A stretch of DNA of 42,324 nucleotides from Synergistaceae bacterium. GTDB lineage: Bacteria > Synergistota > Synergistia > Synergistales > Aminobacteriaceae. The stretch is from the NCBI GenBank assembly GCA_031272145.1, contig JAISUL010000024.1, forward strand, positions 1-42,324. Direction: 5' to 3'. The notes beneath the pieces are model-generated. The model searched no databases, was not told the origin of the DNA, and was given only the letters and a program-made list of their open reading frames with translations. Shown in pieces: positions 2,248 through 41,972 of the stretch; position 1 is the first letter of the stretch, and every line of letters starts with the position of its first letter. The translations under genes were made by a program, and so were the position numbers.

Positions 2248-3483
2248 TTATATATTCTTCGCCAGCACCACCGGCAGGTTATACAGCAGCGCCCAGCTCG
2301 CTATGCACTTGTCCGAAAGCGCCGGGATGTTCGTGCCTCTTGCCCACCACTGGTTCGACACTGCAACCAGGACGTCCGGGCGGGAGGCGGCGGTTGTTAG
2401 GCAGGGGAGGTATAGGTAGGGCTCGAAGCATATCAGGACGCCTACTTTCATGCCGTCGACGCGAGTCATCCCTGCGCCGCCGAACCAGTCGGCTACCGCG
2501 CCGGTGTCGCTCCACGGGCGCCACATCGAGAACGGAACCGGGAAGCGCTGCACCACCGAGCCGGTGTTGGCGCCCCTCACATGCACCAAGTTTATGTACT
2601 TCATCGTGCCGTACGCCGTCTCCTCGGCGCCTACAAAGAACGTGCGCCCGCCATCCTCGAACAGCCGCGACGAGTCGCTCCATAGCATCTCCGTCACGTT
2701 TCCCCACCATCCCGCCACAGTCTCAGGCAGAACTACGTACTTGGCCTTCGAGTTCCTCAGGATTATCGACAGTATCTGATAGCGGACGTAAGGCCCGACC
2801 GAGTCGTCACTGCCGCTGTAGAGCTTCCCGAACGATGTGTATATGCCGTCCCAGTCGGGGGGAACGCGGGGGGTGAGGCGCGCCTGCGGCGACATGAACG
2901 CGACGTACAGCGCTACGGACGCCACCGCCACGGCGCGGGCGCGTCCGCTTGTACGCCACAGAGCCACCCAGAGCAGGACTACGGCGGCTATCCCAAGCTC
3001 AGCCGTGTACGGAAACAGGTACCCGGCGCACAGCAGCGGGTTCCCCCATGTCAGACCCACCGGCGGCAAAATTATGATGGCCATGATGACCAATAGGCGG
3101 GCTAGAAGAGACGAGAACGAGGAGTGTTTCCTCGTCCACAGGAGCGCCCATGGCAGAGCAAACACTATGGCGGGAAGCAGCCACAGCAATCCTAGGTAGA
3201 CTGCGTACAGGGGAAAGGCCGGGCCGAGCATCGGCTGGTCCTCCAAGCCGAAGAAGCGCGGCGCGCTCGTCACCAAGCCGTAGGACGCGGCCAGTAGGTA
3301 GGACATCGGCGTCAGGTAGGCGCCCAAGCGCCCGACCGAGAACATCCATATGACTGGCATGAAAAACATCGGCGCCAAATTGACGGAATCGCAGCCGATA
3401 AGCCAGCCGAGCACACAGGCCAGCAGCGCCTGAAGTAGCGCAGCGGCTAGCCTTACCTTACGAGAAGGGGTTCGGCTTTCCAT
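2248..3483 (-). CDS. traB: TraB-like conjugal transfer protein (nitrilase/Lnt-related membrane protein)
   Basis: About 411 residues. The N-terminal half has several hydrophobic membrane segments. The C-terminal half is a carbon-nitrogen hydrolase domain like apolipoprotein N-acyltransferase, with Glu in LPETVAGWWG and Cys in VGVLICFEPY. The VPFSMWRPW motif is typical of TraB of conjugative plasmids. The Lys expected for the hydrolase triad is not obvious. The ATG at 3483 overlaps the end of traF by 31 nt; an upstream extension to 3591 runs antisense to conserved traF and was rejected. The traF-traB pairing matches Ti-plasmid transfer regions, where TraB aids conjugation. It is the last gene of the minus-strand run. 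Confidence 0.75.
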   Translation of the reverse strand: MESRTPSRKVRLAAALLQALLACVLGWLIGCDSVNLAPMFFMPVIWMFSVGRLGAYLTPMSYLLAASYGLVTSAPRFFGLEDQPMLGPAFPLYAVYLGLLWLLPAIVFALPWALLWTRKHSSFSSLLARLLVIMAIIILPPVGLTWGNPLLCAGYLFPYTAELGIAAVVLLWVALWRTSGRARAVAVASVALYVAFMSPQARLTPRVPPDWDGIYTSFGKLYSGSDDSVGPYVRYQILSIILRNSKAKYVVLPETVAGWWGNVTEMLWSDSSRLFEDGGRTFFVGAEETAYGTMKYINLVHVRGANTGSVVQRFPVPFSMWRPWSDTGAVADWFGGAGMTRVDGMKVGVLICFEPYLYLPCLTTAASRPDVLVAVSNQWWARGTNIPALSDKCIASWALLYNLPVVLAKNI

Positions 3484-4097
3484 TTTATAAGCTTGACCGG
3501 CAAAGGGCCGTGGTAACGGGAGTCGTAGGCGTTCGCTCTGGGGTCGACTAACCCCTCGGGGTCGACTGACTCCACCTCGGCCATCAGCCACACGCAGCCG
3601 TCGGGCACTACTATGGGGTACCGCACCTTTACCCAGCTTTCGTCGATTATCGGCGCCCTGTACGGCACTCCGTCGATCGTGATGTTGCCGCCGTCTCTGT
3701 CTATGACGGAGCCTGGCAGAGCCGCGACCCTCTTGAGCAGAGTCGGAACGATGAACGTCATGCGGTCCTCGCGTACCTCCGGCCTCTCGGCGTAAAACTC
3801 CTGCACGTCGAACGCCACCACGTCCCCGACGGCTAAGGGGTTAGTCAACCCCGAGGGGTTAGCCAACCCCAAGGGGTTAGTCCCCCCCAAGGGGTTAGTC
3901 AACCCCGAGCCGCGTTCCCCCGTGCTGACGCTGCGCCACAGCCCGACTGGGACGTGCGACGGCGAGAGGTTGATGTGAAGCCCGAACAGGGGGAAAGCCC
4001 CAAGGAACCCCCCTACGCACAGGAAGATGAGCGTCAGGCTGCGGAGCGCGCGCCTATTTATTCGGGCTTGCATTGGGGAACTTGTCCCTCGGGGCAT
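3453..4097 (-). CDS. traF: TraF-like S26 signal peptidase of conjugative transfer
   Basis: Up to 214 residues, S26 serine peptidase family. One N-terminal membrane anchor is followed by the Ser box SPSHVPVGLW and the Lys box LLKRVAALPGS. The C-terminal substrate-box region ends NAYDSRYHGPLP. In RP4-type systems TraF matures the TrbC pilin. The start is either 4097 (GGGG upstream) or 4073; both are plausible. Two foreign-looking in-frame insertions are present. One is four tandem 18-nt units at 3836-3907, translating as GLTNPL-like repeats between the Ser box and the VGDVVAF strand. The other is a shorter related pair near 3540-3570. Neither interrupts a catalytic motif. Confidence 0.85.
   Translation of the reverse strand: MPRGTSSPMQARINRRALRSLTLIFLCVGGFLGAFPLFGLHINLSPSHVPVGLWRSVSTGERGSGLTNPLGGTNPLGLANPSGLTNPLAVGDVVAFDVQEFYAERPEVREDRMTFIVPTLLKRVAALPGSVIDRDGGNITIDGVPYRAPIIDESWVKVRYPIVVPDGCVWLMAEVESVDPEGLVDPRANAYDSRYHGPLPVKLIKWKAEPLLVR
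3540..3570 (-). repeat. Diverged mini-repeat pair in the traF 3-prime region
   Basis: Two units of the form GGGGTCGACTAACCCC, related to the 18-nt repeat but with TCGAC in place of TTAGTC. They add roughly VDPEGLVDP just before the conserved YDSRY motif of traF. Confidence 0.6.
3836..3907 (-). repeat. Four tandem 18-nt palindromic mini-repeats inside traF
   Basis: Four units of 18 nt, each around GGGGTTAGTCAACCCC, whose arms GGGGTT and AACCCC can pair. They encode six residues per unit (GLTNPL, GGTNPL, GLANPS, GLTNPL) and keep the frame. Related units lie at 3540-3570, 5733-5786 and 39376-39409. Confidence 0.85.
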
Positions 4098-4326
4098 TGC
4101 CGCCCCTTTGCGCGCCAGCGTCGGACGAGCCCGCCGTTGTGTCTGCGCTGGAGACGGCGTGGATCGCGTCGAAGTTCAGGGTCATGGAGTCCGTCCACTT
4201 GTGCAGACCCTCTGCTATGGCACCGTTGCGCGCGTCCGAGTACCCCATGAACCAGCCCATCGCAAACGCGGCACCAGCGACAGCAAACAGCAGGAGTAAA
4301 AACCTCATGATCCTCACGGCGCTCAC
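4054..4326 (-). CDS. Small membrane protein between trbI and traF
   Basis: Up to 90 residues. One hydrophobic segment (residues about 7-30) contains small residues and ends in GWFMGYSDARNG. A polar Ala, Ser and Asp-rich tail follows. The GTG at 4326 overlaps the trbI stop (GTGA), implying translational coupling; the ATG at 4308 is an alternative. The end overlaps the start of traF. No family was recognised. From position it could be a small accessory or entry-exclusion-like component, but that is only inference. Confidence 0.55.
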   Translation of the reverse strand: MSAVRIMRFLLLLFAVAGAAFAMGWFMGYSDARNGAIAEGLHKWTDSMTLNFDAIHAVSSADTTAGSSDAGAQRGGNAPRDKFPNASPNK

Positions 4327-5708
4327 CGTTTTTTGTAAGGCGTGTAGGGGCCGGCGAAGGCTACGTCCTTCGTCGTGATGATGCTGAAGCGATAGCCCGG
4401 CAGGATGCGCAGGGTCGGGGCCACGTTCATGTTGCGCTCGGCCAGCCTAGCCCCAAGCTGCGTGACCTGCTGCATGGTGGCGTCGGACATCGCGTCGCCG
4501 GCGGTTAGGTTGTAGTCGTTGCGGTTCGTGTCGTTCTGCGTGGCGATCTTGCCCGCCGCTGCGAAAACCGAGGCGAACAAAGCCGCTCCCAGCATGCGTC
4601 CGTAGTGGTTGTCGACCTTTTGCTTGAAGCCCGCGTAGCCGCCCTGGTCGCTCCCCGACATCCCCTCCAGATTGAGCGACGTCCCGTCTGGGTAGATTAT
4701 CCTCTGCCATACGACGAGTATCCTCCACTGGCCGTAGACGACGTGAGAGTCGTATGATCCGATCATCCGCGAGCCCTGGGGTATCAGCAGGCTTGAGCCG
4801 GTGGCGGTGTCGTATACGTTCTCGGTCACCTGCCCCACGATCGTGCCTGGCAGGTCGCTGTTTATGCCGCCGATCATCACGCCGCTTATGATAGAGCCGG
4901 CCTTGAGCTCGTAATTCCCGCGCGGAGCCCGCCGCGATGAGCCGATGTACTCGTCCTTCGCGTCATTTGCACCCACGTTAGTTAACCCGGTGCTGTTCTT
5001 GATAAACGCGTTGTTCCTGTCCTGATGGGACATGGCCGAGGCGTTGGGGTCGGACTCGCCGTAGCCGTACTGCGGCCTCATGTTTATACCGGTAACGCCG
5101 GCGCCGCCGCCCAGCGTGTACGTGCCAGGCCAAGCCGCTACGTCGCCGTCCGAGCGTTCAGCGCCCTCCGCCGCGCCGCTTAGGGCACTTGATGCGCTTG
5201 AAGAAAGCTGCCCGCCAGACTGCGGAGGGTTGTCTAACCCCAGCTTGACGTTGGGGTCGGAGGCCAGAGCACTCATTCTGAGCTGCCTGCTGCGCGTGTA
5301 CGCCTCAGATGAAGCACGACGCACGCGCGGCTGGGCTTGGTGGCTCGTGGTATCAGTGCTCTCAGTCGGCTGCTGTTCGGGCTGCTGTTCCGGCGCGTTC
5401 AGCTTTTCCGTGGTCGGGGCCGCGGTTGGCTCGCCTGCGCTGAGCGCCGCTAAAAACCTGTCGAACCTGTCGCTGTAAGCGCCGCTAGCCGAGGCCACGA
5501 CGGAGACCGGAATAGAGGTGCTGCCGGTGCTCATCATCTCGGTCTCGCGGCTCAAGTTGAATATGACGAAGGCTATCGCAGCCCCGCCTAGCGCCGTGAG
5601 TATCCAGAAGAGCCTGTTGCTTATAGGCGTGTTTCTGAACCTCGAAGCCGCGACTTGTACGTCTTTCCTGCCGCTTTCGCTTTCGGACTGAGGTGTTGAC
5701 GCCCCCAT
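4323..5708 (-). CDS. trbI: TrbI/VirB10-type T4SS channel protein
   Basis: 461 residues, the usual length of RP4 TrbI. A cytoplasmic N-terminal segment precedes a single inner-membrane helix (residues about 32-52). A Pro, Gln and Thr-rich periplasmic linker follows, including EQQPEQQPTES. The C-terminal TrbI domain contains GSIISGVMIGGINSDLPGTI, LIPQGSRMIGSYDS, WQRIIYPDG and GYAGFKQKVDNHYGR. The protein spans inner and outer membranes and forms the core channel with TrbG. A GAGGAGGG ribosome site precedes the ATG at 5708, 13 nt after trbG. The N-terminal words FRNTPIS also occur at the C-terminus of TrbG, from a duplicated stretch of about 20 nt. A degenerate mini-repeat (GLTN) occurs around 4975-4995. 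Confidence 0.9.
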   Translation of the reverse strand: MGASTPQSESESGRKDVQVAASRFRNTPISNRLFWILTALGGAAIAFVIFNLSRETEMMSTGSTSIPVSVVASASGAYSDRFDRFLAALSAGEPTAAPTTEKLNAPEQQPEQQPTESTDTTSHQAQPRVRRASSEAYTRSRQLRMSALASDPNVKLGLDNPPQSGGQLSSSASSALSGAAEGAERSDGDVAAWPGTYTLGGGAGVTGINMRPQYGYGESDPNASAMSHQDRNNAFIKNSTGLTNVGANDAKDEYIGSSRRAPRGNYELKAGSIISGVMIGGINSDLPGTIVGQVTENVYDTATGSSLLIPQGSRMIGSYDSHVVYGQWRILVVWQRIIYPDGTSLNLEGMSGSDQGGYAGFKQKVDNHYGRMLGAALFASVFAAAGKIATQNDTNRNDYNLTAGDAMSDATMQQVTQLGARLAERNMNVAPTLRILPGYRFSIITTKDVAFAGPYTPYKKR

Positions 5709-5721
5709 TAGGCAACCCTCC

Positions 5722-6897
5722 TCAGTTCGCCTCGGGGTTAGTCAACCCCGAGGGGTTAGTCAACCCCGAGGAGTCAGTCGACCCCGCGCTTATCGGCGTG
5801 TTTCTGAATATCCCTACACGGTCTTTCCCGACCGTCAGGATGCCTACGTCGAAGAGCCTGTCGACGATGTAGAGGTTGTGCTCGACGCGGTAGTTGACCA
5901 GCTTCTCGCGCCCGCCCTGCTTGACAAACATAGCGGGGGCCTCGGTAATGTTCATGGTCTTCGGCATGACTATGTACGTCTTCCCCCCGGCGTCGTAGAC
6001 GGCCGTGGGCTTCCATGGGACGTTCTTGCCGCGGGTTACCTTCACGGTGTAGTCGAGGTTTATCGAGGCTGCGTCGGTGATCCTCGCGTCGTCCGCGATA
6101 TTCGCGCCGCTTGCTGCCTGAAGCCTCGCGGCCTTTGCCTCGTTGATCATCGCGTACTGACCGTTAAGCAGCCTCCATGACTCCTCGTCGGCGTTCTTCG
6201 CCTCATCAGGGTAGACGAAGCCGACAAACGGCATGTAGCTGCCGGTGTCCGACACTATCTCAAGCGAGTAGGTGCGCCGGTCGGTGTGGATTATCATGTT
6301 CGCCGCTATGTCGGGGAGCTGCGGCTTCAGGATGACGTGGGTCACGAGGTTGCCGGGGTTGCCGCTCCACGCGCCCGACACCGACCAGCGCGCCGAGTCG
6401 GAGATGTGCACGCTCTTGACCTGCTCGCCCGGCTCCAGCTCTATGTCCGTCAGGCGCAGCGGGCGGCACACGATCCTAGGCGTCATAGCTCCGTAGTAAA
6501 AGTTGACGCGCCCGTTGCCGCCGAGGTACGGCTCAGGAACTGAGCCGGCCTTCTCGTAGGCCTCGACCAGCTTCATAGCCGACTTGTCCACCGGTCTCAT
6601 CTGGGGTACTTTGTCGACCTCTGCCAGCTTCCTGTCGAACACGTCTGAGTCATCCGGCTCCTCGCGCGGCGGAAGGACTACAGGCCCAGTAGACTCGACG
6701 CCGTCCTCGCGCAGATTGTAAGCACTGACGAGCGCGTCGAAGGACGCGTTAAGCAGGCCGTATTCGTCGGTGTTCGCGGATGCATCGGGGTTCACGGGGA
6801 ACATACTCGCCGCCTGCGCCGATGAGACCGACAAGAGCAGCATTAAGAGCATCATTGGCACGGCAGCAAAGCCGACCACAAAAACACGAGTTTTCAT
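5722..6897 (-). CDS. trbG: TrbG/VirB9-type T4SS outer-membrane complex protein
   Basis: 391 residues with a clear signal peptide at 1-29 (hydrophobic run, then SSAQAA). The beta-rich VirB9 domain contains FYYGAMTPRIVCRPLRLTDIE, GEQVKSVHISDSARWSVSGAWSG and, in the C-terminal lobe, KPTAVYDAGGKTYIVMP. It forms the outer-membrane core with TrbI. GGAGGTG about 9 nt upstream decides the ATG at 6897; the longer frame runs antisense to conserved trbF sequence. The C-terminus carries three in-frame copies of the 18-nt mini-repeat (GLTNPSGLTNPEAN end) and an FRNTPIS block shared with the start of trbI, so the native C-terminus seems extended by about 25 residues. Confidence 0.88.
   Translation of the reverse strand: MKTRVFVVGFAAVPMMLLMLLLSVSSAQAASMFPVNPDASANTDEYGLLNASFDALVSAYNLREDGVESTGPVVLPPREEPDDSDVFDRKLAEVDKVPQMRPVDKSAMKLVEAYEKAGSVPEPYLGGNGRVNFYYGAMTPRIVCRPLRLTDIELEPGEQVKSVHISDSARWSVSGAWSGNPGNLVTHVILKPQLPDIAANMIIHTDRRTYSLEIVSDTGSYMPFVGFVYPDEAKNADEESWRLLNGQYAMINEAKAARLQAASGANIADDARITDAASINLDYTVKVTRGKNVPWKPTAVYDAGGKTYIVMPKTMNITEAPAMFVKQGGREKLVNYRVEHNLYIVDRLFDVGILTVGKDRVGIFRNTPISAGSTDSSGLTNPSGLTNPEAN
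5733..5786 (-). repeat. Three tandem 18-nt mini-repeats at the trbG 3-prime end
   Basis: Three 18-nt units (two with GGGGTTAGTCAACCCC and one diverged, GGAGTCAGTCGACCCC) encode the last residues of TrbG, just before the stop at 5722. Confidence 0.85.
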
Positions 6898-17624: not shown

Positions 17625-17653
17625 AATATAGCGCTCTGGCACGGATACGTCAA
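17625..17653 (-). promoter_or_regulatory. Internal sigma70-like promoter before trbC
   Basis: On the minus strand TTGACG (17648-17653), a 17-bp spacer and TATATT (17625-17630). It overlaps the end of the upstream gene and reads into trbC. A weak CGCG stem followed by six T lies just downstream and could add attenuation, but it is too short to call a terminator. Confidence 0.5.
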
Positions 17654-18438
17654 TACCCTGTCTGCCTCGGCGCCACTTCTCCCATCCAGTAGTACCCCCA
17701 CACCATCGCCTGACGCGACAGCACCGGAGTGTCCGACTCGTACCACGTGAAGCCGGAGCGCTTCGACATCCTCGTGAGCTCGTAGATGTGGTTCCGGATG
17801 ATGTCGGTCGGGTGCTCGCCGTCGCTTCGGGCCGTCATGTGGTACCACGCGTGCCCAGTCCAGGCGTAGATCACGCGCGGGTAGTTCCCGCGCCACGCCA
17901 CGGGGAGGGAGGGCTTGTTCAGCACCCCCACCCTGTCCACGCTGCTCTTCCAGCCCCCAAGCTGCATGAAGCGCATGTCGAAGAGCCAGTCCGGCATGTA
18001 GGTCGAGCTCGGCGTCCCCGGCAGGGGGACAGCCGTCCCCAATCTAGCTCCGACGGAGGGCTGGGTCGCTAGCTCCGAGCGCCCGGCGTCGGGGAGGGTC
18101 GTCACCGACGAGATCTGCACGGAGCCAGGGAACGGGTTCAGCCCAGCAAGGGACGGGACGACCGACCCGACGACGTAGTGCGTGGGCGTGATTATGGGGC
18201 CGTTGAACGTGCCGTAGACCCACACCCCGTCCTTGTTCTTGGTCACGGGGTAGCCGTCGAACGTGGCGTACCACCCGGCCGGGGCGTTGTAGGGCTTGTA
18301 GAGGCTGAACTTCATGCCGGCGTAGGGAGGCTGCTCCACCAAAAGCGGCTCGACCGCGTAGAACTTACCCCATGCGGAGGCCGCAAAGCAGCACACCGCG
18401 ACCGCCGCCACCGCTACCGTGAGTGCCCTGCTTTTCAT
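17650..18438 (-). CDS. Secreted protein of unknown function, T4SS locus
   Basis: 262 residues. A signal peptide (about 1-25, ending FAASAWG) precedes a mature part rich in Pro, Trp and Tyr. Segments include YNAPAGWYATFDGYPVT, NPFPGSVQISSV and SGFTWYESDTPVLSRQAMVW. The ATG at 18438 is chosen because AGGAGG, overlapping the stop of the upstream gene, sits at ideal spacing. The aromatic, Cys-poor mature chain suggests a folded periplasmic or surface domain, but I recognise no family. In a standard trb locus trbB would occupy this position. Together with the TPR protein it may be a lineage-specific T4SS component. Confidence 0.65.
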   Translation of the reverse strand: MKSRALTVAVAAVAVCCFAASAWGKFYAVEPLLVEQPPYAGMKFSLYKPYNAPAGWYATFDGYPVTKNKDGVWVYGTFNGPIITPTHYVVGSVVPSLAGLNPFPGSVQISSVTTLPDAGRSELATQPSVGARLGTAVPLPGTPSSTYMPDWLFDMRFMQLGGWKSSVDRVGVLNKPSLPVAWRGNYPRVIYAWTGHAWYHMTARSDGEHPTDIIRNHIYELTRMSKRSGFTWYESDTPVLSRQAMVWGYYWMGEVAPRQTGY

Positions 18439-18448
18439 GTTCGGCCTC

Positions 18449-19276
18449 CTATTGATATTCATACTTATACGTCGGATTATACGGAGAATAGTACGGCGCG
18501 GACGGAGGGGCGTACAGAGGGGGCTGGAACGAGCCGTCGGGCGCGGCGTCGGGCGCAGGGGGGAGGTACACCGGCACTCTCGGCGCGTCCGGGGCAGCCG
18601 GCGGAGCGGGACGAGCGTAAAGCTGCGCTGACTCCGGGGAGCCGGGCGGGATGGACGTCACGTCGGTCTTGTGGGCCTCGACTCGGTAGACTCTGGCAGG
18701 GCGCAGCGGGTCCCAAAGGGGCGTCTTGTCGGCGTCGTTCGGGTAAGTCACGACGCGGGAGAGAGGCGGGAACGCCGGGTCCTCCTTCAGGGCGCGGGTG
18801 TAAAAGAACTGCGCCTGCGAGAGCTGCCCCACTGCCTCATGACAGCGCCCGTACCAGTACCACGCGTTCGGGTTGCGGCGCTCCTGCCCCACGGCTATCT
18901 GCAGCCATGGCATGGCGGCCTCATAGCGCTTCTCGTCCATGAGGGCGATGCCCCGCTCAAGCGCCGTGGGCTGCGGCGGCTTTTTCACGCTCTCGGCGGG
19001 CTTGGCTTTGCTAGCCGTGCTCACAGCCTTCTTCCTGCTCTTCTTTTTTGGCTTGCGGATGGTGGCCTTGCGCACCGACTTCTTCACGGCTGCGTCGGCG
19101 GATGCCACGCCGGACGCGTGCTTGGGGTCGTCCGCCGTCGTGTCGCCGTTGGCGAACGAGGGGGCAGCCGTCCCGGAATAGGACGCGAGCAAGCAGAGCA
19201 AAAAAACCGACAGCGCAGCGACGGCCGTCGCCTTTCTCAGCGCAGCCCAGGCCGTCGCTTTCTTGTTCGCTCTCAT
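18449..19276 (-). CDS. Exported TPR protein directly after rpoC
   Basis: 275 residues. A hydrophobic signal or anchor (about 15-35) precedes a Lys/Arg-rich linker (KKSVRKATIRKPKKKSRKK). At least one to two TPR-like helical repeats follow (ALERGIALMDEKRYEAAMPW, then NAWYWYGRCHEAVGQLSQAQ). The tail is Pro and Tyr-rich (PPLYAPPSAPYYSPYN). TPRs usually bind partner proteins. The ATG at 19276 is 4 nt after the rpoC stop. Its GGAG ribosome site is made of the last rpoC codon and stop, so translation is probably coupled to rpoC. This gene is the physical link between RNA polymerase and the T4SS run. Confidence 0.7.
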   Translation of the reverse strand: MRANKKATAWAALRKATAVAALSVFLLCLLASYSGTAAPSFANGDTTADDPKHASGVASADAAVKKSVRKATIRKPKKKSRKKAVSTASKAKPAESVKKPPQPTALERGIALMDEKRYEAAMPWLQIAVGQERRNPNAWYWYGRCHEAVGQLSQAQFFYTRALKEDPAFPPLSRVVTYPNDADKTPLWDPLRPARVYRVEAHKTDVTSIPPGSPESAQLYARPAPPAAPDAPRVPVYLPPAPDAAPDGSFQPPLYAPPSAPYYSPYNPTYKYEYQ

Positions 19277-24331: not shown

Positions 24332-24350
<19 letters not shown>

Positions 24351-27300
24351 GAGTCGGCACCCTCCTTATCAGATTCAGAGTCAGAGCCAAACACTTCAGC
24401 ATCAGACGCGTTCGACTCCTCCGTCAAAGAAGCGTCGTCAGAGTCGGCGTCGGAATCCTCCGCGTCCTCCGCGCCGCCGGAATCCTCCGCTTCCTCCGAG
24501 TCCTCGGCCTCAAAGAGGTCGCCCCGTCCTCCCTCGTCTGAGTACGTTCTTATCCGCCCCTCAGGGGTGTCGCCCTCGAACATGATCTCGCGGCGCGGCC
24601 TCATGGTCTGCATCTCGTCCTCGTCCTCGGAGTCCATGTTCCCCATCGTGCCGTCGTCGTACTGAACCTCGACGTCAAGCCCGAGACCCTGAAGCTCCTT
24701 GACCAGCACGCGGAAGCTCTCAGGCACGCCGGGCTTGACAAGGTTCTGGCCCTTGACTATGCTCTCGTAGGTCTTGTCGCGCCCCCTGATGTCGTCGGAC
24801 TTGACCGTCAGTATCTCCTGAAGCACGTTGGCAGCGCCGTAGCCCTCCAGCGCCCAGACCTCCATCTCGCCGAACCGCTGTCCGCCGAACTGCGCCTTGC
24901 CCCCAAGCGGCTGCTGAGTTATCAAACTGTACGGGCCGGTAGACCGAGCGTGAATCTTGTCGTCAACAAGGTGAATCAGCTTCAGCATGTACATGCAGCC
25001 GACGGTCACCTTCTTCTCCATAGGCTCGCCGGTGCGCCCGTCGCGCAGCGTTATCATGCCGTGCTCCGTGAGGTCGGGGTACTTCATCGCGGCAAGCTTC
25101 CCCAGCTCCTCGAATATCTCCTCGCTCTTCGCCCCCTCAAACACCGGCGTGGCCACGTGCCAGCCGTTGTTCAGCGCAACGAAGCCCATTATCGTCTCAA
25201 GAACCTGCCCAAGGTTCATGCGGCTGGGGACGCCCAGCGGGTTCAAAACCACGTCCACCGGCGTGCCGTCGGGTAGGTAGGGCATGTCCTCCACAGGAAG
25301 TATGCGGCTCACCACGCCCTTGTTGCCGTGGCGCCCAGCCATCTTGTCCCCGACCGTTATCTTGCGCCACTGCGCCACGTAGACCTTGACCGCCCTCAAC
25401 ACGCCAGGCGAAAGCGCCTCAGGCGCCGTCTCGCGCGTCATCTGCTTGACGGCCACGATCTTTCCCCTTGCTCCGTGCGGCAGCTTGAGCGAGTTGTCTC
25501 GCACCTCGCGCGCCTTCTCGCCGAAGATCGCCCGAAGCAGCTTCTCCTCGGGCGTCTGCTCCGACTCCCCCTTGGGCGTGACCTTGCCGACCAAAATGTC
25601 CCCGGCGTTGACCTCCGCGCCGATGCGTATCACCCCGTCCTCGTCGAGGTTGCGCAGCATGTCCTCGCCGACGTTCGGGATGTCGCGCGTGATCTCCTCA
25701 GGCCCAAGCTTAGTCTCGCGCGCCTCGGTCTCGTATTCCTCTATGTGGATGGACGAAAACTTGTCGTGCTTCACAAGGTTCTCGTTGAGAAGTATCGCGT
25801 CCTCAAAGTTGTAGCCCTCCCACGGCACGAACGCAACGACCACGTTCTGCCCCAGTGCGAGCTCTCCCTCGTCCATGGACTGCCCGTCCGCTATTACCTG
25901 GTCGGCGTCGACCCTCTCGTTCTTGCGCACCAGAGGCCGCTGGTGTATCAGAGTCCCCTGGTTGGAGCGGCGGAACTTTATCAGGTCGTAGGTCTTCCGA
26001 GCCCCGCCCGGAAGCTCGCGCACCAAGAGCGCTGTGATGACCTCCGCACCCGACAAAGCCCGCTCGATCTCGCCGGCGTCAGCGGCGGTGAAGACCGCAG
26101 CGCCTCGCAGCACCAACCCACGCTCGCGCAGCGCGGCCTCAATGGCGTCGACGCCGAAGCCGCCGGACTCGGGTGTTTCGGGCTTGGCCTCGCCCAGAGT
26201 CTTCTTGAACTTCTCCAGAGCGTCACGGATGTGCTTCCCCCGCGGCCCCCTCGGGTCTACCTGAACGAGCTTGCGCCTATTCTTGAACGCCTTGTCGAGC
26301 TCGGCCACGGTCTTTATGCTGTTCTTGACCTCGAGAGCCCGCCGCGTCTGGGTGTCAAGACCCAAGACCGTCAGGGGGGAGGCCATAGACGCCGCTGGCG
26401 CCTCGGGCTTCCCGCCGACGCCCGTCTCCGCGGCGATGCGCAAGGCCAAGCCGCGAACATGAAGTGCGGCCTCGATCGCGTCGAGGTCAGAGGCGGTGAA
26501 GACGGGCTCGCCGGCGTTGGGCTTAAACTTCTCCAATGCCGCGTCGATGTCCTTTTCCAGCTGGCCGCCCTTAGAGATGTCCTTGATCTTGCTCCCTGAG
26601 TTTCTAGCCTGTACAAGATCGGCGACCGAGCTGATCTTGGGATCGGTGCTCTTCTTAATGACGTTCAGGATGCGCGCGGCGTTGGCCTTAGGCAGTAACG
26701 GCTCCAGCTTCTCCACCGGAACGTTCATCGCGCCGAGGTCAGCAGCGGTGAAAACGGGCCCGGCGCCGCCGGCCTTAAACTTCTCCAATGCCGCGTCGAT
26801 GTCCTGCTCCAGCTGGCCGCCCTTAGAGATGTCCTTGATCTTGCTCCCGGAGTTCCTAGCCTGTACAAGATCGGCGACCGAGCTGATCTCGGGGTCGGTG
26901 CTCTTCTTAATGACGTTCAGGATGCGCGCGGCGTTTGCCTTCGGCAGGAACGGCTCCAGCGTGCTTACTGGGACGTCCATGTCAGCGGGAGCGGAGGGTC
27001 TGTTTACTGCTGCCGCCAGATCAGCCCGCGACTTTGCGATAAGGCCGCTCACAGTGCTGATGCCGGCGGAATCCAGCAAGGCGTGGACAACGGCCCCGGC
27101 GCGATCGCTGTAGATGCCGAGCTCGCCGACGGGCAGGTCAGGCATGCCGTCCGGCAGGACGCCTATGCCCTCGGTGCCGCGCAAGACCAAGCCGCGCGCG
27201 CGCAGGGCGGCCTCGATGGCGTCGAGGTCAGGGGCGGTGAACACGGGCTCGGCGCCGCCCTGAAACTTCTCCAATGCCGCGTCGAGGTCATGTGACAGTT

Positions 27301-30300
27301 TGCCGGGCCTGCCGTCTTTATTGATGCCAGCTATCCCGGACTTCAGCGCCTCTATAAGCTCGGCAACCGTGGTTACCTTGGGGTCAGAGTTCCTAAGGGC
27401 TTTCAGGATATTAGAGACGTTGGTCTTAGACACGTTAGCATTAGACAAAAACTGCTCGTCCACCGGAACGTCCATGTCGACGGGGGCGGAGGAGCTGTTT
27501 GCTACTGCCGCCAGATCAGCCCGCGACTTGGCGATAAGCTCGCTCACAGTGCTGATGCCGGCGAAATCCGACAAGGCGCTGACAATAGCCTCGGCGCGAT
27601 CGCCGTAGATGCCAAGCTCGCCGACTGGCAGGTCAGGTGCGCCGTCCGGCAGGACGCCTATGCCCTCGGCGCCGCGCAAGACCAAGCCGCGCGCGCGCAG
27701 GGTGGCCGAGATGGCGTCGAGGTCAGCAGCGGTGAACACAGGCCCGGCGCCGCCCTGAAACTGCTCCAATGCCGCGTCGATGTCCTGCTCCAGCTGGCCG
27801 CCTTTGGAGATGTCCTTGATCTTGCTCCCGGATTTTCTCGCCTGTACAAGATCGGCAACAGAGCTGATATTGGGGTCAGTGCTCTTCTTAAGGACGTTCA
27901 GAATGCGGGTAGCCCGAGCCTTCGGCAAAAGCGGCTCAAGCTCGTCTATCGAAACGTCCATGTCGACGGGAGCTGAGGAGTTGTTTGCTACTGCCGCCAG
28001 ATCAGCCCGCGACTTGGCGATAAGCTCGCTCACAGTGCTGATGCCGGCGAAATCCGACAATGCGCGGACGACGTCCTCGGCGCATTTGCCGTAGATGCCG
28101 AGCTCGCCGACCGGGAGGTTCAGCACTTCGTCCGGCGCAGCGACTGCCCCTGAACTCGCCGGCAGCGCGGCCGCGTTGGGCTCAAGTGCGGTGGAAACTG
28201 GCGCACCGCTGGCCCTAAACTTCTCCAATGCCGCGTCGATGTCCTGCTCCAGCTGGCCGCCTTTAGCGATGTCCTTGATCTTGCTTCCGGACTTCCTTGC
28301 CTCCACAAGATCGGCGACCGAGCTGATCTTTGGGTCGGCGCTCTTACTAAGGACGTTCAGAGTGCGGGTGGCCCTAGCCTTCGGCAAAAACGGCTCAAGC
28401 TCGCCTATCGGAACGTTCATGTCAACAGGGGCAGGGGAGCTGTTCACCACTGCCTCCAGTTCAGCCCGCGACTTGGCAATGAGGTCGCTAATGCTCTCGA
28501 TTCCGGCGTCGCGCAGGCGGGTGAAAACGTCGCCTAGGTCGTCGACGCGGAAGTTCGGCACTTCGTAGGGCATGACGCCGGAGCCTTTGACGGACAGAAG
28601 CTCTTCCACAGTGATTAGCCTGCCAGCCGCAAGGGCGTCTAGATAGTCAGGATAGTAGTTATCAAGCAGGGCGCCGATGACTGGACTGACGTTAAAGCCC
28701 TTGGCCACGACGCGGCAGGGTGCCGACGCTAGCCTGAGAATAGAGTCGTTCAGCTTCCGATTCCTGCCGTTCACAGTTATGCCTGCAAGGTCAGTGACTA
28801 GAACCTTCCCGTTCAGCCTCTCGCGGAACGCCGCCTCGTTCACGAAAACCTCGTTGCTATAGTCCCCTGCTCCGAGCACGAACTTCGACACCATCGTGCC
28901 AGGCCTCAGGAGGAGCCGCAGCGCTGCCTCGTCCAGCGTCTTGCCGAACAGAGGCCGCGTAAGCTCGTCGGCCATGTCTATCTCTTTGATGACGAGCTGG
29001 CCGAGCTGTTCGCAGTCCAAAACGCGCCACGCCTCGTTCAGCGCGCGCATTACTTCCTTCTCGTCGCCGTCCTCGAGGACTTTTATGTACTCGGAGTCAA
29101 CCCACGTGACGACGCCCGGCCTCTTCGCCACCACGCATGAGCCGGAGTCCTTCGCTATGCGGTGCTCTATGCCTGTGCCCACGCGCGGCGCGTCGGGGAA
29201 GATCAGCGGCACGGCCTGACGCTGCATGTTAGACCCCATCAGGGCGCGGTTCGCGTCGTCGTGCTCCAAAAACGGGATAAGCGCCGTGGAGGACGAAACT
29301 ATCTGCTTCGGCGACACGTCCATGTAGTCGACGTCCTCAACTGGGATCGACTCGATGTCGTCCTGATGGCGCGTGACGACAACGCCGCCGACTGGTATGG
29401 GGGTCGCTTTCTTCTTCCAAGACTCATCGATTGCGTCGGCGTCCTCGGCGCTGAAGACCACGGCGCCGAGCAAAACCAAGCCCTCTTTACGCAAAGCGGC
29501 CTCGATCTCGTCGAGGTCAAGGGCGGTGAAAACTGGCTCGCCGCCGGGCTGCTTGGCAATAAGGCCGCGCACCGCGCTGAACTCGGCGTCGTCCACGCAG
29601 ACCTCGACCTCGCGCCCGTTGGCGGATGCAGACTCGAGTTTACTAATGGCATCCTTGACGTGCTTGAAGTTGGCCGACTTGACGCCCGTCTTGCTGCCGA
29701 CGATCTCCCCGAGCTTGTCGTCCGCCAGGTTTTTAAGCTGGCCGACGTTCTCGATACCCGCGGCATTGAGGGCGTCCACTATCTTCTTTTTAACGCCGCC
29801 GGTGGCCGGAATGTCGAGCTTGTCAAGCGGCTGGCCGTAGACGCCGCCGTCTTCGACGGCATCCGTGAGTACGAACTTCGATGCCTTAGCGTCAGGCCCG
29901 AAAAGAAGCCGTACCGCCGCCTCGTCAAGCGGCTTGCCTACCAGCGGCCTCGTCTGCTTGTCTGCCTCGTCTATCTCTTTGATAACGAGCTGGCCGCAGT
30001 CCAAAAGCTTGCGCACCAAGACCGCGGTTACAAGCGCTCCGCTGTCGTTGGCTATAACGTTACAAGGTACGTTCACGCGCTGAGGGGTGGAGTCGTTCAG
30101 CCTCTCGCGGAACGCTGCATCGTCCACGAAGACCTCGAACTCACGCCTGCCGGCGTCGCCGTCCTCGGCCGCGTCCACGAGCACGAACTTCGAGACCGCC
30201 GTGCCAGGCCCGAGGAGAAGCCGTATCGCCGCCTCGTCAAGCGGCTTGCCGATTAGTTGCCTCGTCTGCTCGTCGGCTCCGTCTACCTCTTTAAGAACGA

Positions 30301-33300
30301 GCGGGTTCGAGCTCATATCCGAGAGCTTGCGCACCAATACCGCGGTGATGACCTTCGGCAAAGCCCGCTCGATTGCGTCGACGTCATCGGCGCTGAAGAC
30401 CGAAGCGCCGCGCAAGGCCAAGCCGCGCGCGCGCAGCGCGGCTTCAACGGCGCCGACGCTCAGAGCAGCCGGAACATACCCGCTGGACTCCTTGAACTTA
30501 TCCAGGGCGTCGCGTATGAGCTTCCACCGCGGCCCCTTCGGATCCACCTGAACGAGCCTGCGCCCCTGATTGAGCGCGTCGTCAAGCGTGGCCACGGTCT
30601 TTATGTGGTTCTTTATCTCGAGAACCCTCCGCGTCTGAGTGTCGAGGCCCAAAGCGGACAGAGGAACCGTCGGCACCTTGGCCTTGAGCTTCTCGCGCGA
30701 ATTGGCGACCAGCTCGCTCACGTTCTCGATCCCAGCGTTGCGCAGGATGCTGAAGTCGCCGAGCTCGCTGACGGGGAAGTCCGGCACGCCGTCCGGCATT
30801 ACTCCGGTGCCTTTGACGGCCAAAAGCGCGCGCACGTCCCCGCCCGCGGCGTCGGGGCAGTAGTGCTCCAGCAGGGCGCGAACGGCGGCGTCCACATCAA
30901 GGGTGCCGAGATTAAATGGGTCGTCGGCCACGACGCGGCAAGGGGCAGTGATGCGCCGAAGCAGCGAATCGGACAGCCGCTCGCCGCTCGCCGCGACGCC
31001 TGGCAGGTCGCCGATGAGAGCCTTCCCGTTCAGCCTATCGCGGAACGCGGCCTCGTCCACGAAGACCTCGACCTCGCGCCTGTTGGCGGACGTGGGCTTG
31101 AGTTTGCCAAGGGCGTTCTTGACGTGCTCGAAGTTGGCTGACTTAACGCCAGTTTTGCCGCCGAGTATCTCTCCGAGCCTGTCGTCCGTCAGCCTTTGAA
31201 CCTGGCTGACGCTCTCGATGCCCGCGGCCTTGAAGGCGTCCACTATCTTCTTTTTGACGCCGCTCTTGGTCGGAATGTCGAGCTCGTCAAGCGACTGGCC
31301 GGCGTCGCCGCCTCCGGCCGCGTCAGCGAGCACGAACTTCGAGACCGCCGTGCCAGGCCCGAGGAGAAGCTGTAACGCCGCCTCGTCGAGCGGCTCGCCG
31401 ACCAGCGGCTTCGTATGCTCGTCGGCTCCGTCTATCTCTTTGAGAACAGGCGAGCCAGAGCCCAGGACGCGCAAGACCTCGGCCACGCCGCGTGAGTTCC
31501 TGCTCTCGGCCAAGACGTGCAGGACATCGTCCACAGCGCGTTTGGCCAAGATACGCAAGACCTCGACTAGGTCTCCGCCTGGCGGCGTCTTTATCTTCTC
31601 GCGAAGCTCCTCGCGCGACTTGGCGACAAGTCCGCTCACCGTGCGGATGTCTGCGAAATCCGACAAGGAGCGGACGGTATTCTCATAAAGATCGAGCTCG
31701 TCCACCGGGAAATCCGGCACTCCCTCCGGCAGGACGCCGGGGCCTCTCAATGCCGGAAGCTTTTCCCTCGCGACTCGCTCGTCTGCCTCGGCCTCGGCGG
31801 GATAATCAGGGTAATAGTTCTTGAGCAACCCGCGGAGGACGGCGTCGACGTCGAGGCCGTCTATGTTTATAGGAAAAGAGCCTGGAACCTCGCTCCCCCT
31901 GCCCACCAGGGTCTTGCCGTCGGCGGCCAGGGGCGTGCTGGCCATCGCGACGTGGTACTGATCCTCCTCGTCGGCGGCCAGAAACTCTATCTCACCGGTC
32001 AGCTTCCCGTCCTTGACCTCGCAGCGCGGCGTTATCAGGAAGCCGTAGTCGTTCAGCTTCGCGTATGTCGTCAGGGACGAGACCAGGCCTATGTTCGGCC
32101 CCTCAGGGGTCTCTATCGGGCAGACTCGGCCATAGTGCGTGTAGTGGACGTCGCGCGCCTCGAAGCCGGCTCGCTCTCTGCTCAGGCCGCCGGGGCCCAG
32201 CGCGGAAAGGCGCCGCCTGTGCGTCACCTCCGCCAGGGGGTTCGTTTGATCCATGAACTGAGAGAGCTGGCCGGAGCCGAAAAACTCCCTCAAGGCCGCC
32301 GCTATCGGGCGCACGTTTATCAGCTCCCGCCCCATCGTGGCGCTCAGGTTCGGGATCGTGGTCATGCGCTCCCTCGCGATGCGCTCCATGCGCAGTAGGC
32401 CTATTCTCAGCTGGTTCTGCAGAAGCTCGCCTATCGAGCGGACTCGGCGGTTGCCCAGGTGGTCTATGTCGTCGCTCTTCTTCTCGAGATCGCGAAGAGC
32501 GAACATCTCGCGGGCTATGGCCACGATGTCGTCCAGAGTGAGTAGCCTCTCGTCCTCGGAGATGTTCAGCCCGAGGCGGCGGTTCATCTTGTAGCGCCCG
32601 ACCCGCCCAAGCGTGTACCGCCTCGGGTCGAGGAACATGTTGCGCACGTACTCGCGGGCGTTCTCCACGCGGGCCGGCTCGTTGGGGCGGAGGCGGCGGA
32701 ATATCTCCTGCATCGCCTCGTCCACGCTCTGGGTCGTCTCCTTCTCCATCGTCAGGGCAAGGGATGGGTCAAGGGGGTAAACCTTCACTCCCTCGCGGTT
32801 CATGCGCCGCAGCCTGTCCAGAGCCTCGCGCGTGATGGGACGGCCTGACGCCGTGACCGACACCCCGCCGTCGTGTACGCTCTCGGCCGCGAGCATGCCC
32901 TTCAGGGAGTCGTCGAGGGACTTAAACTCCGGTTCAGCCCCCATCAGGCGTATGATTTCGTCGTTGTTCTTCGCCCCAAACGCCTTCATCAGCAGCGTCA
33001 TGGGCAGCTTGCGGCGGTTGTCGATGTTGACCGTCGCTATGTCCCCAGGCGTGGCGAAAAACTCCAGCCACGCCCCGCGGTCGGGTATTATCTTCGCCGA
33101 GCAGACCTCCTCGCCTCCGGTCGACTCCTCCTTCGAGAAGTAGACCCCAGCCGAGCGCGCCAGCTGGTTTATAACGACCCTCTCGGTGCCGTTTATGATG
33201 AAGGTACCCCTGTCGGTCATCACCGGAAAGTCGCTTAGGAATATCTCCTCCTCTTTCATTTCCCCAGTTTTATTGTTGGTCAGACGGATGGTGGCGCGAA

Positions 33301-33601
33301 TCGGACGCGCCCAGGTCATGTCCCGCTGACGCGCGACCGCCTCCGTCAGAACCGGCGCGTCCACGTGATAGCGGATAAACTCCAGCTTAAACTGGCCATC
33401 GTAGCTCTCTATCGGGAAGACCTCGCAGAGCAGCTCCTGAAGCCCCTGCAGCTGACGCTTGTCGGCAGGAACGTCGTCCTGATAGAACCGCCGGTAGGAA
33501 TCGCGCTGGATCTCGATCATGTTCGGTATCTCTATCAGGTCATGAGCGCGACCAAAAGTGTAACGCCGCCTCTTCTTACTCACCGTAACGAATTCAGGCA
33601 T
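24332..33601 (-). CDS. rpoB: RNA polymerase beta subunit with giant repeat insertions
   Basis: About 3,089 residues, roughly 2.5 times the usual length. The beta core is complete: rifampicin-region [13 protein letters not shown] near 445, DYMDVSPKQ near 1425, [12 protein letters not shown] near 1450, [12 protein letters not shown] near 2755, and the C-terminal clamp segment with [19 protein letters not shown]. Block 1 (residues about 571-1410) lies after DGKTLVGR. Block 2 (about 1516-2533) lies between EYIKVLEDG and [11 protein letters not shown]. Both are repeats of helix-hairpin-helix-like and other modules. The last 100 residues are an Asp, Glu and Ser-rich tail. GGGAGGG decides the ATG at 33601. 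There is no rplJ/rplL upstream. A GGGGGTC/GACTCCC hairpin lies in the leader (33623-33640). Confidence 0.95.
26000..29055 (-). repeat. RpoB insertion block 2 (about 1,020 residues), tandem array
   Basis: Coding segment between EYIKVLEDG and YDLIKFRRS of RpoB. A unit of about 490 bp recurs: the words for LPVGELGIY lie at 28089, 27602 and 27110, spaced 487 and 492 bp. Each unit has GISTVS(E/G)[11 protein letters not shown], then (A/T)RILNV(L/I)[25 protein letters not shown] and [17 protein letters not shown] shorter repeat of about 250 bp occurs near 26525 and 26770. Stretches of 40 or more bases are nearly identical between units. Confidence 0.85.
29370..31890 (-). repeat. RpoB insertion block 1 (about 840 residues)
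   Basis: Coding segment between the DGKTLVGR and VDYMDVS parts of RpoB. It contains three copies of a module with core PLDEAA(L/I/V)xLL and SKFVL (coding near 31330-31440, 30190-30300, 29870-29995). It also holds five helix-hairpin-helix-like units, such as [18 protein letters not shown] and its near copy [18 protein letters not shown]. (D/V)EAAFR(D/E)RLN words start a third module type. The frame is fully open. Confidence 0.85.
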
Positions 33602-33697
33602 GACACCAAGCCCTCCCATTATGGGGAGTCTTCGACCCCCAGGTGGAACAAAATTTTTAACCTCGGGACGGCAGACCCCGACTCGCGACGAACGGCT

Positions 33698-37422: not shown

Positions 37423-38850
37423 CTACTCCCCCTGTACCAGCTTCCCAGGGTTCATTATCTCCAGCGGGTCGAAGGCCAGCTTGATCGCTCGGTGTATCCT
37501 GCGCTCCTCCGGCGTCTTCGTCGAGAGCAGCGTCGGCAGCTTCAAGAACCCTACCCCGTGCTCGCCGCTTCCCACGCCGCCCAGCTTCACCGCCTCCTCG
37601 ATCATCTCGTGGAAGAACTGCTCGGCGTACTCGCCCCACTCCTCCGGCGGCATGCCATCGGGCTTCGCCGCCAGCGGGTGGATGTTCCCGTCCGCTATGT
37701 GCCCGCAGTTCCCCACTGGCACGCGCCACTTCTCCGCTAGCCTGTTGATGGTCTTTATCATGCTCGGCACGGCGGACAGAGGCACCACCACGTCGCCGGA
37801 CAGAGAGCAGTAGGGGTCGTAGGCCCTCATGCCCTCCGCAAGGTTCTGCCTCACGTTCCAGATCATCTGGGAATCTATGCGGCTCTCGGCCACGAAGACC
37901 TCGAAGGCGCCCTGAGCCTCGCATATCTTGCCCACCTTCTCGTAGGCCGCCTCGATCTCGTCGTCGTTGTTGCCCTCGATCTGGATCAAAAGGTACGCCT
38001 CAGTCCTGTCCTGATACGGAAGCGGCGTGCCGACGTAGTCCGTCGTGACCTTCGTCGCGAACCTGTCGAAGAACTCGCAGGATATAACCCGCGTCCCGGA
38101 CTGAACTACCTTCGCCACGGTCGAGACCATCGTGTCGAGGTCGGGATAGGCGGCAAGGAGGTTCACAGTGCGGCCGGGCAGGGGCTCAAGGTTCACTATT
38201 ACCTTCGTGATCACGCCGAGCGTGCCCTCTGACCCCACCATGAGCTGGAGCAGGCTGTAGCCCCACGTGTCCTTCCGGAACTTGCCGCCGAGCTGAACCA
38301 CCGCGCCGGACGGAAGCACGACCTCCAGCCCAAGCACGTGCCGCCTCGTGCTGCCGTAGCGTATGACCTTCCCGCCGCCCGCGTTGGTGCCGACGTTGCC
38401 TCCGATGAAGCTGGTCTCCGTGCTCATCGGGTAGCCGGCGTAGAGAAAGCCCTTCTCGGCTGCGGCCTTGCAGAGGTCGTTCGTCACCACGCCGGGCTCG
38501 ACGACCGCCACGCGGTTCACAGGGTCTATCTCCAAGATGCGGTTCATCTTCTCTATGGATAGCACTATGCCGCCCTTGACCGGAATGGCGGCGCCTGCCA
38601 GCCCGCTGCCGGCCCCACGCGGCGTCACCGGCACGCGGTAGCGGCTCGCTGTCTCCATTACGGCGCTGACCTGCTCCGCGTTCTCCGGCTTCACGACGGC
38701 GTCGGGGTTGTGCGCGAAGATCACCCCGGCCGTGTCGCACGCGTAGTTTTCCAGCGCGTCGCGGTCCTCGTAGACCACGTTCCTGTCGCCGATTTTCTGG
38801 CGGAGCTCCGCCACGACCTCAGGCGTCACCTTGCCGTATACGCCGCTCAT
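37423..38850 (-). CDS. glcD: GlcD-type FAD-linked 2-hydroxyacid dehydrogenase
   Basis: 475 residues, FAD_binding_4 / FAD-oxidase_C family. The FAD-binding region has VTPRGAGSGLAG and GGNVGTNAGGGKVIRYG. The C-terminal substrate domain has NCGHIADGNIHP and GSGEHGVGFLK. Family members oxidise D-lactate, glycolate or other 2-hydroxyacids. It overlaps etfA by 4 nt (ATGA), and the order etfB-etfA-dehydrogenase matches lactate dehydrogenase/Etf complexes of anaerobes such as Acetobacterium, where electrons pass to EtfAB. The substrate here cannot be fixed from sequence by eye. It is the last gene of this operon. Confidence 0.88.
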   Translation of the reverse strand: MSGVYGKVTPEVVAELRQKIGDRNVVYEDRDALENYACDTAGVIFAHNPDAVVKPENAEQVSAVMETASRYRVPVTPRGAGSGLAGAAIPVKGGIVLSIEKMNRILEIDPVNRVAVVEPGVVTNDLCKAAAEKGFLYAGYPMSTETSFIGGNVGTNAGGGKVIRYGSTRRHVLGLEVVLPSGAVVQLGGKFRKDTWGYSLLQLMVGSEGTLGVITKVIVNLEPLPGRTVNLLAAYPDLDTMVSTVAKVVQSGTRVISCEFFDRFATKVTTDYVGTPLPYQDRTEAYLLIQIEGNNDDEIEAAYEKVGKICEAQGAFEVFVAESRIDSQMIWNVRQNLAEGMRAYDPYCSLSGDVVVPLSAVPSMIKTINRLAEKWRVPVGNCGHIADGNIHPLAAKPDGMPPEEWGEYAEQFFHEMIEEAVKLGGVGSGEHGVGFLKLPTLLSTKTPEERRIHRAIKLAFDPLEIMNPGKLVQGE

Positions 38851-39866
38851 TTCGCTTTCCCCCTTAAGGCGCCGATCAGCTGGGGCAGGACGTCCAGAAC
38901 GCTCCCCACGACGCCGAAGTCCGCCGCGCCGAATATCGGTGCGTCCGGGTCGGTGTTCACGGCGATGACCTTCTCGGCGCCCGACATCCCCGCGAGGTGC
39001 TGAACCGCGCCGGATATGCCGCAGGCGATGTAGAGCCGCGGCGTGACGGACTTGCCGCTCAAACCCACCTGAGCCGAGTACGGCGCCCAGCCGAGGTCAA
39101 CCGCGTTGCGCGACGCCCCGACCGAGCCGTTCAGCAGCTGCGCCAGCTCGTCCAGAAGCGCGAAGTTCTTCGCCCCCTTCATCCCCTTGCCCCCGGCCAC
39201 GATCACGTCCGCGTCCTGAATCGGAAGCCCGACGCGCTGCTCGGCCTCGAAGCTCAGAAACTCAATCAGCGAGGATAGAGAGTTTTCTTGAGGCTTGTAC
39301 CGAACGACCTCGCCGCTCCGCGTGGCGTCGGGGGTGAGAGGCCTGCGCGACTTCGGACGGACAGTGCACATCTGCGGGGGGTTAGTCAACCCCTGGGGGT
39401 TAGACCCCGAACGGCGCTCCGGCGTCATTATGTCCGCCATCACGTTCCCGCCGATGGCAGGACGCGTCTGCAGCAGGCGTCCGTCCCTTATTGACAGTCC
39501 GGTGCAGTCCGCCGTGAGCCCAGCCTCAAGCATGGCCGACAGCGCCGGCATGGTGCTCCGCCCCTGAGTCGTCGCCGATGCGATGATTATCTGGGGCGAA
39601 AACTTCCGCGCCATCTCGGCCAAAACCTTGGCCGCGGCGTCCGAGTAGTAGTGCAGGAGGGATGGAGTGTCCACGACGTAGACCTTATCCGCCCCGCCGG
39701 CGAACAGTGGCTTCTCTACTCCGTCAAGCCCTGAGCCAAGCACGACCGACGCCAGGGGGACGCCCAGCGTATCGGCGAGCCCCCGCCCCCAGGCGAGCAG
39801 CTCCAGCGATACCGAGTGCAGGGTGCCGGCTCGCATTTCTGCCAGAGTCCAAACTTCGCCGCCCAT
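38847..39866 (-). CDS. etfA: Electron transfer flavoprotein alpha subunit with in-frame insertion
   Basis: 339 residues. The N-terminal domain contains IIIASATTQGRSTMPALSA, and the C-terminal FAD domain has VGASRNAVDLGW, QVGLSGKSV and YIACGISGAVQHLAGM. With EtfB it carries electrons from the adjacent dehydrogenase. There is no N-terminal ferredoxin domain, unlike Acetobacterium LctC. Between IMTPERR and PQMCTVRP, where family members run straight through, lie about 11 extra residues (SGSNPQGLTNP) encoded by the palindromic mini-repeat at 39376-39409. GGAGGTG precedes the ATG at 39866, which shares one base with the etfB stop. Confidence 0.9.
   Translation of the reverse strand: MGGEVWTLAEMRAGTLHSVSLELLAWGRGLADTLGVPLASVVLGSGLDGVEKPLFAGGADKVYVVDTPSLLHYYSDAAAKVLAEMARKFSPQIIIASATTQGRSTMPALSAMLEAGLTADCTGLSIRDGRLLQTRPAIGGNVMADIMTPERRSGSNPQGLTNPPQMCTVRPKSRRPLTPDATRSGEVVRYKPQENSLSSLIEFLSFEAEQRVGLPIQDADVIVAGGKGMKGAKNFALLDELAQLLNGSVGASRNAVDLGWAPYSAQVGLSGKSVTPRLYIACGISGAVQHLAGMSGAEKVIAVNTDPDAPIFGAADFGVVGSVLDVLPQLIGALRGKAK
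39376..39409 (-). repeat. Mini-repeat inserted in etfA
   Basis: Two adjoining units (GGGGTTAGTCAACCCC, then a shortened GGGGTTAGACCCC) related to the traF and trbG repeats about 34 kb away. They keep the etfA frame open. Confidence 0.8.
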
Positions 39867-40666: not shown

Positions 40667-40704
40667 GGGGGGCGTTGGCCCCCCTGAGGGGGGAACATCC
40701 CCCC
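40667..40704. repeat. Paired G/C hairpins between transporter and etfB
   Basis: GGGGGGC GTTG GCCCCCC (40667-40684) and GGGGGG AACAT CCCCCC (40688-40704). The second is an exact inverted copy of a hairpin at 41914-41930 on the other side of the transporter gene. Confidence 0.6.
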
Positions 40705-41875: not shown

Positions 41876-41898
41876 GACACAACCTCCGAATAAATTTT

Positions 41899-41930
41899 CC
41901 CCCAAGGGGGCAAGGGGGGATGTTCCCCCC
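41899..41930. repeat. G/C hairpins upstream of the transporter gene
   Basis: CCCCC AA GGGGG (41899-41910) and GGGGGG ATGTT CCCCCC (41914-41930), in the leader just before the transporter ribosome site, inverted relative to the similar pair at 40667-40704. Confidence 0.6.
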
Positions 41931-41972
41931 GTGAGGGGACAGCGTCCCCCCGTCACTCCTGCCTCGCGGCAT

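Follow-up and report, generated by a model that had tools for sequence, protein, structure and literature searches.

The traF gene of this stretch carries four tandem copies of a short palindrome that are translated with the rest of the gene, which raises the question of whether the repeat is ordinary protein sequence or a DNA element that has entered genes in frame. The sequence-only reading had described an 18-nt palindromic mini-repeat, and a search of the window (the whole 42,324-nt stretch analysed) with GGGGTTAGTCAACCCC, allowing up to three mismatches, returned 13 matches, as against 0.33 in shuffled sequence.

Copies in the window and across the genome

The copies proposed earlier were for the most part recovered, their coordinates being correct to a few bases. 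The four-unit array in traF (given as 3836–3907), the diverged pair in the same gene (3540–3570) and the three copies in trbG (5733–5786) are all present, and the traF and trbG arrays both have a period of 18 bp. Two copies had been read in etfA (39376–39409), where we find the insert, with its second hairpin shortened to 13 nt. A degenerate trbI copy at about 4975–4995 did not hold up, being more than three mismatches from the unit; the better trbI copy lies at 5226–5241. Pfam profiles and the identity of TraF to plasmid relatives support the gene names traF, trbI, trbG and etfA. The features are as follows.

3453–4097, minus strand: host gene, TraF-type signal peptidase (S26; PF10502), 36–38% identical to three plasmid TraF proteins
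3540–3573, minus strand: two diverged units in traF, one read EGLVDP
3837–3906, minus strand: hairpin array of four 18-bp units in traF, read GLTNPLGGTNPLGLANPSGLTNP; the third unit, GGGGTTAGTCCCCCCC, has a broken arm
4323–5708, minus strand: host gene, TrbI (PF03743)
5226–5241, minus strand: single unit in trbI, GGGGTTAGACAACCCT, two mismatches, read GLDNP
5722–6879, minus strand: host gene, TrbG/CagX-type (PF03524; coding model), start approximate
5734–5785, minus strand: array of three units in the C-terminal end of trbG, translated GLTNPSGLTNP; the third is GGAGTCAGTCGACCCC
18025–18040, minus strand: single unit of the AC/GT sub-family, GGGGACAGCCGTCCCC, read LGTAVP in the ORF at 17650–18462
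38847–39869, minus strand: host gene, EtfA (PF01012 and PF00766)
39378–39410, minus strand: 33-nt insert in etfA, one full hairpin unit plus the shortened 13-nt hairpin
40668–40704: intergenic pair of G-rich hairpins, alike in general class but not the 18-bp unit
41914–41949: two G-rich hairpins between genes; the first matches the hairpin at 40688 as its reverse complement

The last two features, both G-rich hairpin doublets, flank a transporter-like gene (40745–41956). No Rfam family matched in the window.

The genome is a 2.05-Mb assembly of 107 contigs, 97.8% complete, of which the window is contig C78; genome-wide work covered selected stretches, 20 stretches picked regardless of matches, and pattern searches. 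With up to two mismatches, GGGGTTAGTCAACCCC has 52 matches in the genome versus 2 for a reversed-pattern control, falling into 33 separate sites, 13 of them with more than one unit, and the exact 16-mer is present at eight separate, unlinked sites. Each of 40 relatives holds 0–4 matches. There are 27 occurrences of the two-unit pattern GGGGN8CCCCNNGGGGN8CCCC (control, 0), which is absent from 58 of 60 relatives, the other two having one locus in common. A pattern that leaves the inner arm pairs free, GGGGNNAGTCNNCCCC, gives 42 matches here, and none of the 187 further Synergistota genomes has more than 4. All comparison genomes come from outside the host genus, at which distance young and old copies are indistinguishable; the EtfA orthologues nearest in sequence belong to Synergistaceae MAGs and Synergistales genomes, which places the host in that group. 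Sites are also clustered: 11 pairs of distinct sites lie no more than 3 kb apart, where 1.5 are expected. Viral carriage was rejected, as the two-unit patterns have no exact match in viral contigs and no viral relative of TraF was found.

This genome holds tandem repeats of every kind at about five times the density found in Synergistota relatives (21.5 versus 4.5 arrays per 100 kb; sample L193–L212). RpoB (window 24332–33619, minus strand) is 3095 aa long; its Rpb2_45 and Rpb2_6 regions are separated by an insertion of roughly 1900 residues, made of tandem repeats with 252-bp and 495-bp periods and with weak helix-hairpin-helix/SAM-like matches.

Hairpin anatomy of the unit

Each unit consists of a 16-nt hairpin, GGGG-nn-loop(4)-n'n'-CCCC, with arms of 6 bp ending in GGGG/CCCC, followed by a 2-nt spacer that is usually RA; units stand head-to-tail as an 18-bp repeat. 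The inner arm pairs occur as TT/AA, TC/GA, AC/GT, AT/AT, GC/GC and GT/AC around a constant AGTC loop, and this loop and the RA spacer are common to different arm variants. Of 40 internal spacers, 29 are TT, TC, AA or GA. Both inner pairs are complementary in 28 of the 42 matches of the free-inner-pair pattern (6 of 15 distinct types). Among 23 distinct units drawn from arrays of two units, pairing holds in 94.9% of cells, and none of the 500 shuffles and none of the slid controls reaches their covariation score; for 15 units selected by ends and loop only, the score lies above all but two.

Across the window and 20 stretches chosen regardless of unit matches, the excess of perfect hairpins with arms of 6 bp is mainly confined to those with GGGG/CCCC ends and loops of 3–5 nt, with 15, 10 and 7 observed versus 0.5, 0 and 1 expected, an excess not found in relatives. 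Without the window the count for loops of 4 nt is low (2), indicating that this class is patchy. In a set of 125 sites we found no conserved flank or tag: at 3 of them GTAG/CTAC lies no more than 6 nt from an end, and CGTC/GACG occurs at 8.

Reading frames and empty sites in host genes

The same unit DNA is translated in three frames, as GLTNP, GVSQP and GLVNP, so that the GLTNPx translation proposed from the window is in use but is one of three. Within the TT family, GLTNP accounts for 16 units in 11 genes, GVSQP for 14 in 8 and GLVNP-type for 9 in 6; stop-containing frames are unused, and 11 copies lie outside predicted genes. The use of three frames, together with copies between genes, identifies the unit as a DNA element rather than a protein motif, and we therefore rejected its reading as a motif or linker in one conserved frame. 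Each genic copy adds six amino acids and keeps the protein frame. Host genes identified by Pfam include GlgB, an AddA/UvrD-type helicase-nuclease, alpha-2-macroglobulin, an MsbA-like ABC transporter, CarB fused to DapF, an M23 peptidase, glycosyltransferase 2, RsmH, an NAD(P)-binding Rossmann protein, cysteinyl-tRNA synthetase, an S4-domain protein and a HIGH nucleotidyltransferase. In the fusion, CarB and diaminopimelate epimerase (DapF) share one reading frame (L149 1059–5225, minus strand), as they do in a relative of another genus (L294); at CarB residues about 911–924, a GGCACT-type hexanucleotide expansion gives a 13-residue Gly-Thr run that is not in relatives.

Orthologues show several of the host positions empty. 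The claim that the repeat interrupts a stretch continuous in the EtfA family was borne out: the block is otherwise conserved, but the 33 nt that stand here between CGC CGT and CCG CAG are missing in 12 orthologues and also in the solved relative CarE, and the only stretch with pLDDT below 50 in the predicted EtfA fold overlaps the insert. In the AddA-like gene, an exact 18-nt unit (SGLTNL) and an exact 54-nt array are missing in about ten family relatives, in an alignment that leaves out relatives L263 and L264 (wrong reading frames, picked by length). The 57 nt in CarB are missing in a 74% identical CarB-DapF fusion from another genus and in E. coli-type CarB, and both TraF arrays are missing in the three plasmid TraF proteins. 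Arrays in GlgB, RsmH and CysS map to poorly aligned loops relative to solved homologues, which is only suggestive of empty sites. Four clean junctions adjoin G or C runs. We looked for the unit at the same positions in distant orthologues and did not find it. Identical copies at scattered sites, others between genes, the use of three frames and insert-free orthologues thus support a repeated DNA element that has been inserted into genes with the frame kept, as the sequence-only reading had claimed.

A sister family, GGGGTCTCAGACCCC plus two bases, repeats with a period of 17 bp and is present at many sites. None of the 14 places with two 17-bp units lies inside a predicted gene, versus 22 of 27 18-bp pairs (4 outside, 1 at an edge; Fisher p about 3e-7). 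These counts carry some error, since genes outside named families were called with a simple codon model for which the window served as training sequence. Overlapping pairs within one array are counted one by one, so that fewer arrays are effectively independent, yet the 17-bp class is without any genic case. More generally, arrays whose period is a multiple of three mostly lie in genes and period-17 arrays do not. That 17-bp pairs are never genic and 18-bp pairs mostly are points to frame selection after insertion. Intergenic 15-nt hairpins often end just before a Shine-Dalgarno-like GGAG and start codon (L193:11845, L206:4031, L281:1532, L277:1696). A terminator role is unsupported as a general explanation, intergenic copies lying both upstream and downstream of genes.

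Related repeats and the origin of the unit

Palindromes inside bacterial genes are already known as RPEs and GTAG/CGTC repeats; the defining tags and transposase of these systems were tested for and are not found here. The resemblance to Rickettsia palindromic elements noted earlier holds for the effect, namely palindromic repeats standing in frame within unrelated housekeeping genes, lineage-specific and missing from orthologues; size, tag and family membership do not carry over. RPEs are about 150 bp (PMC10969869), with smaller ones having a CGTC end (PMC3733652), whereas the present units are 17–18 bp with 6-bp arms, no tag and head-to-tail arrays, and the same 18 bp of DNA gives three peptides instead of one conserved peptide. 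REPs tagged with GTAG/CGTC also lie within genes, including UvrD-type repair helicases and tRNA synthetases (PMC3733652), and resemble our unit in their short stems and loops, in stem changes that keep complementarity and in intragenic positions in those gene classes. However, REPs are mainly inverted dimers, in contrast to the untagged head-to-tail units here, which come with no RAYT; the CGTC repeats and short RPEs have stems of 8–9 bp, compared with 6 bp. REPINs mobilised by RAYTs are dispersed 16-mer hairpins in a bacterial genome (PMC3116915), whereas here units are tandem, many are intragenic and a RAYT (Y1) was not found. With no PF01797 match and the GTAG tag at 3 of 125 sites, membership of the REP/RAYT system was rejected.

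Repetitive hairpin-forming elements of mitochondria, known from sponges, placozoans and the double hairpins of Allomyces (PMC2800124, PMC7813641), are likewise short, with complementary stem changes, dispersed and tandem, and also genic. They differ in being eukaryotic organelle DNA of unrelated sequence, whereas our units lie on bacterial chromosome contigs with housekeeping genes and show in-frame arrays and a 17/18 partition. They are the nearest in anatomy, a likeness in how the elements work and not of common descent. Cyanobacterial small dispersed repeats (SDR), about 20 bp long, tandemly repeated and possibly mobile (PMC2884548), are alike as short tandem repeats, by description only. 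The palindromic amphipathic repeats termed PARCEL, which are repeat domains mainly of membrane proteins (PMC2996958), are set apart from the hairpin unit by description.

How the copies arose is a separate matter, and we lean towards a lineage-specific dispersed hairpin micro-repeat of 17–18 bp that is probably copied by template switching and slippage and then sorted by selection. A nascent or lagging strand would fold into the hairpin and replication would switch template, in most cases to a site close by and where G/C runs offer microhomology, leaving a new copy; slippage would afterwards add whole units, and selection would purge insertions that shift the frame, add a stop or strike a structured part of the protein. 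Template switching draws its support from the clustering of sites, from microhomology at four junctions and from the negative search for one transposase family. The G or C runs at those junctions are weak evidence of microhomology, the genome being GC-rich, and clustering could alternatively reflect a few genes that tolerate inserts. Loss of the SbcCD hairpin nuclease as the cause of the repeat load was rejected, since SbcD is present in the genome and nuclease loss does not account for the load.

Among the alternatives, we regard as unlikely, though the most serious, a non-autonomous mobile element of REP/RPE type, moved in trans by an unrecognised transposase that would bind the hairpin and copy it as single-stranded DNA. 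Identical 16-mers at unlinked sites, the exact one-unit 18-nt insertion in the AddA-like gene and the bacterial precedents for intragenic palindromes (PMC3733652, PMC10969869) agree with such a mobile element, but there is neither tag nor conserved flank, and head-to-tail arrays with many arm variants are unlike the work of one enzyme on one recognition sequence. The REP-associated transposase looked for on the strength of the earlier reading did not appear either: Y1_Tnp (PF01797) has no match in the 97.8% complete assembly, the same profile being positive in 5 of 14 control genomes. A transposase of another family could still act in trans.

It seems improbable that the arrays were each made in place by fold-back copying and slippage, their likeness being convergence on GGGG-CCCC hairpins. 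Some families do stand at one gene only, such as the GGGGAACTGATTCCCC array in carB, where the relative's target is already CTGGGCGAG, and the general tandem-repeat load is high; but convergence is hard to credit when exact GGGGTTAGTCAACCCC stands at eight separate sites and GGGGTCTCAGACCCC at many, with the AGTC loop and RA spacer common to arm variants. We give still less credence to a functional element under selection, either an mRNA hairpin or a GxxxPx linker serving host proteins. Intergenic 17-bp units are often just upstream of ribosome-binding sites and genic copies yield GxxxP-type loops; nevertheless, the host genes are unrelated, the frames differ, orthologues manage without the insert and the window has no Rfam match.

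Returning to the copied hairpin micro-repeat, its elements are most likely neutral or selfish, and host proteins would acquire a flexible GxxxPx loop. A bolder form of this reading, which we entertain tentatively, is a replicator set by DNA shape only (GGGG...CCCC ends plus self-complementarity) and copied by host replication with no transposase, in which the genetic code would leave 17-bp units intergenic and 18-bp units genic.

An uncultured gut-type Synergistaceae bacterium carries hairpin repeats at dozens of places, the middle of essential genes included. If our reading is true, these would be among the smallest dispersed elements known to enter genes in frame and would provide a natural experiment on the protein sites that tolerate six-residue insertions, while the split between 17-bp and 18-bp arrays would display frame selection directly. 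A phenomenon known mainly from mitochondria would then extend to a bacterial chromosome, where its copying mechanism would be testable.
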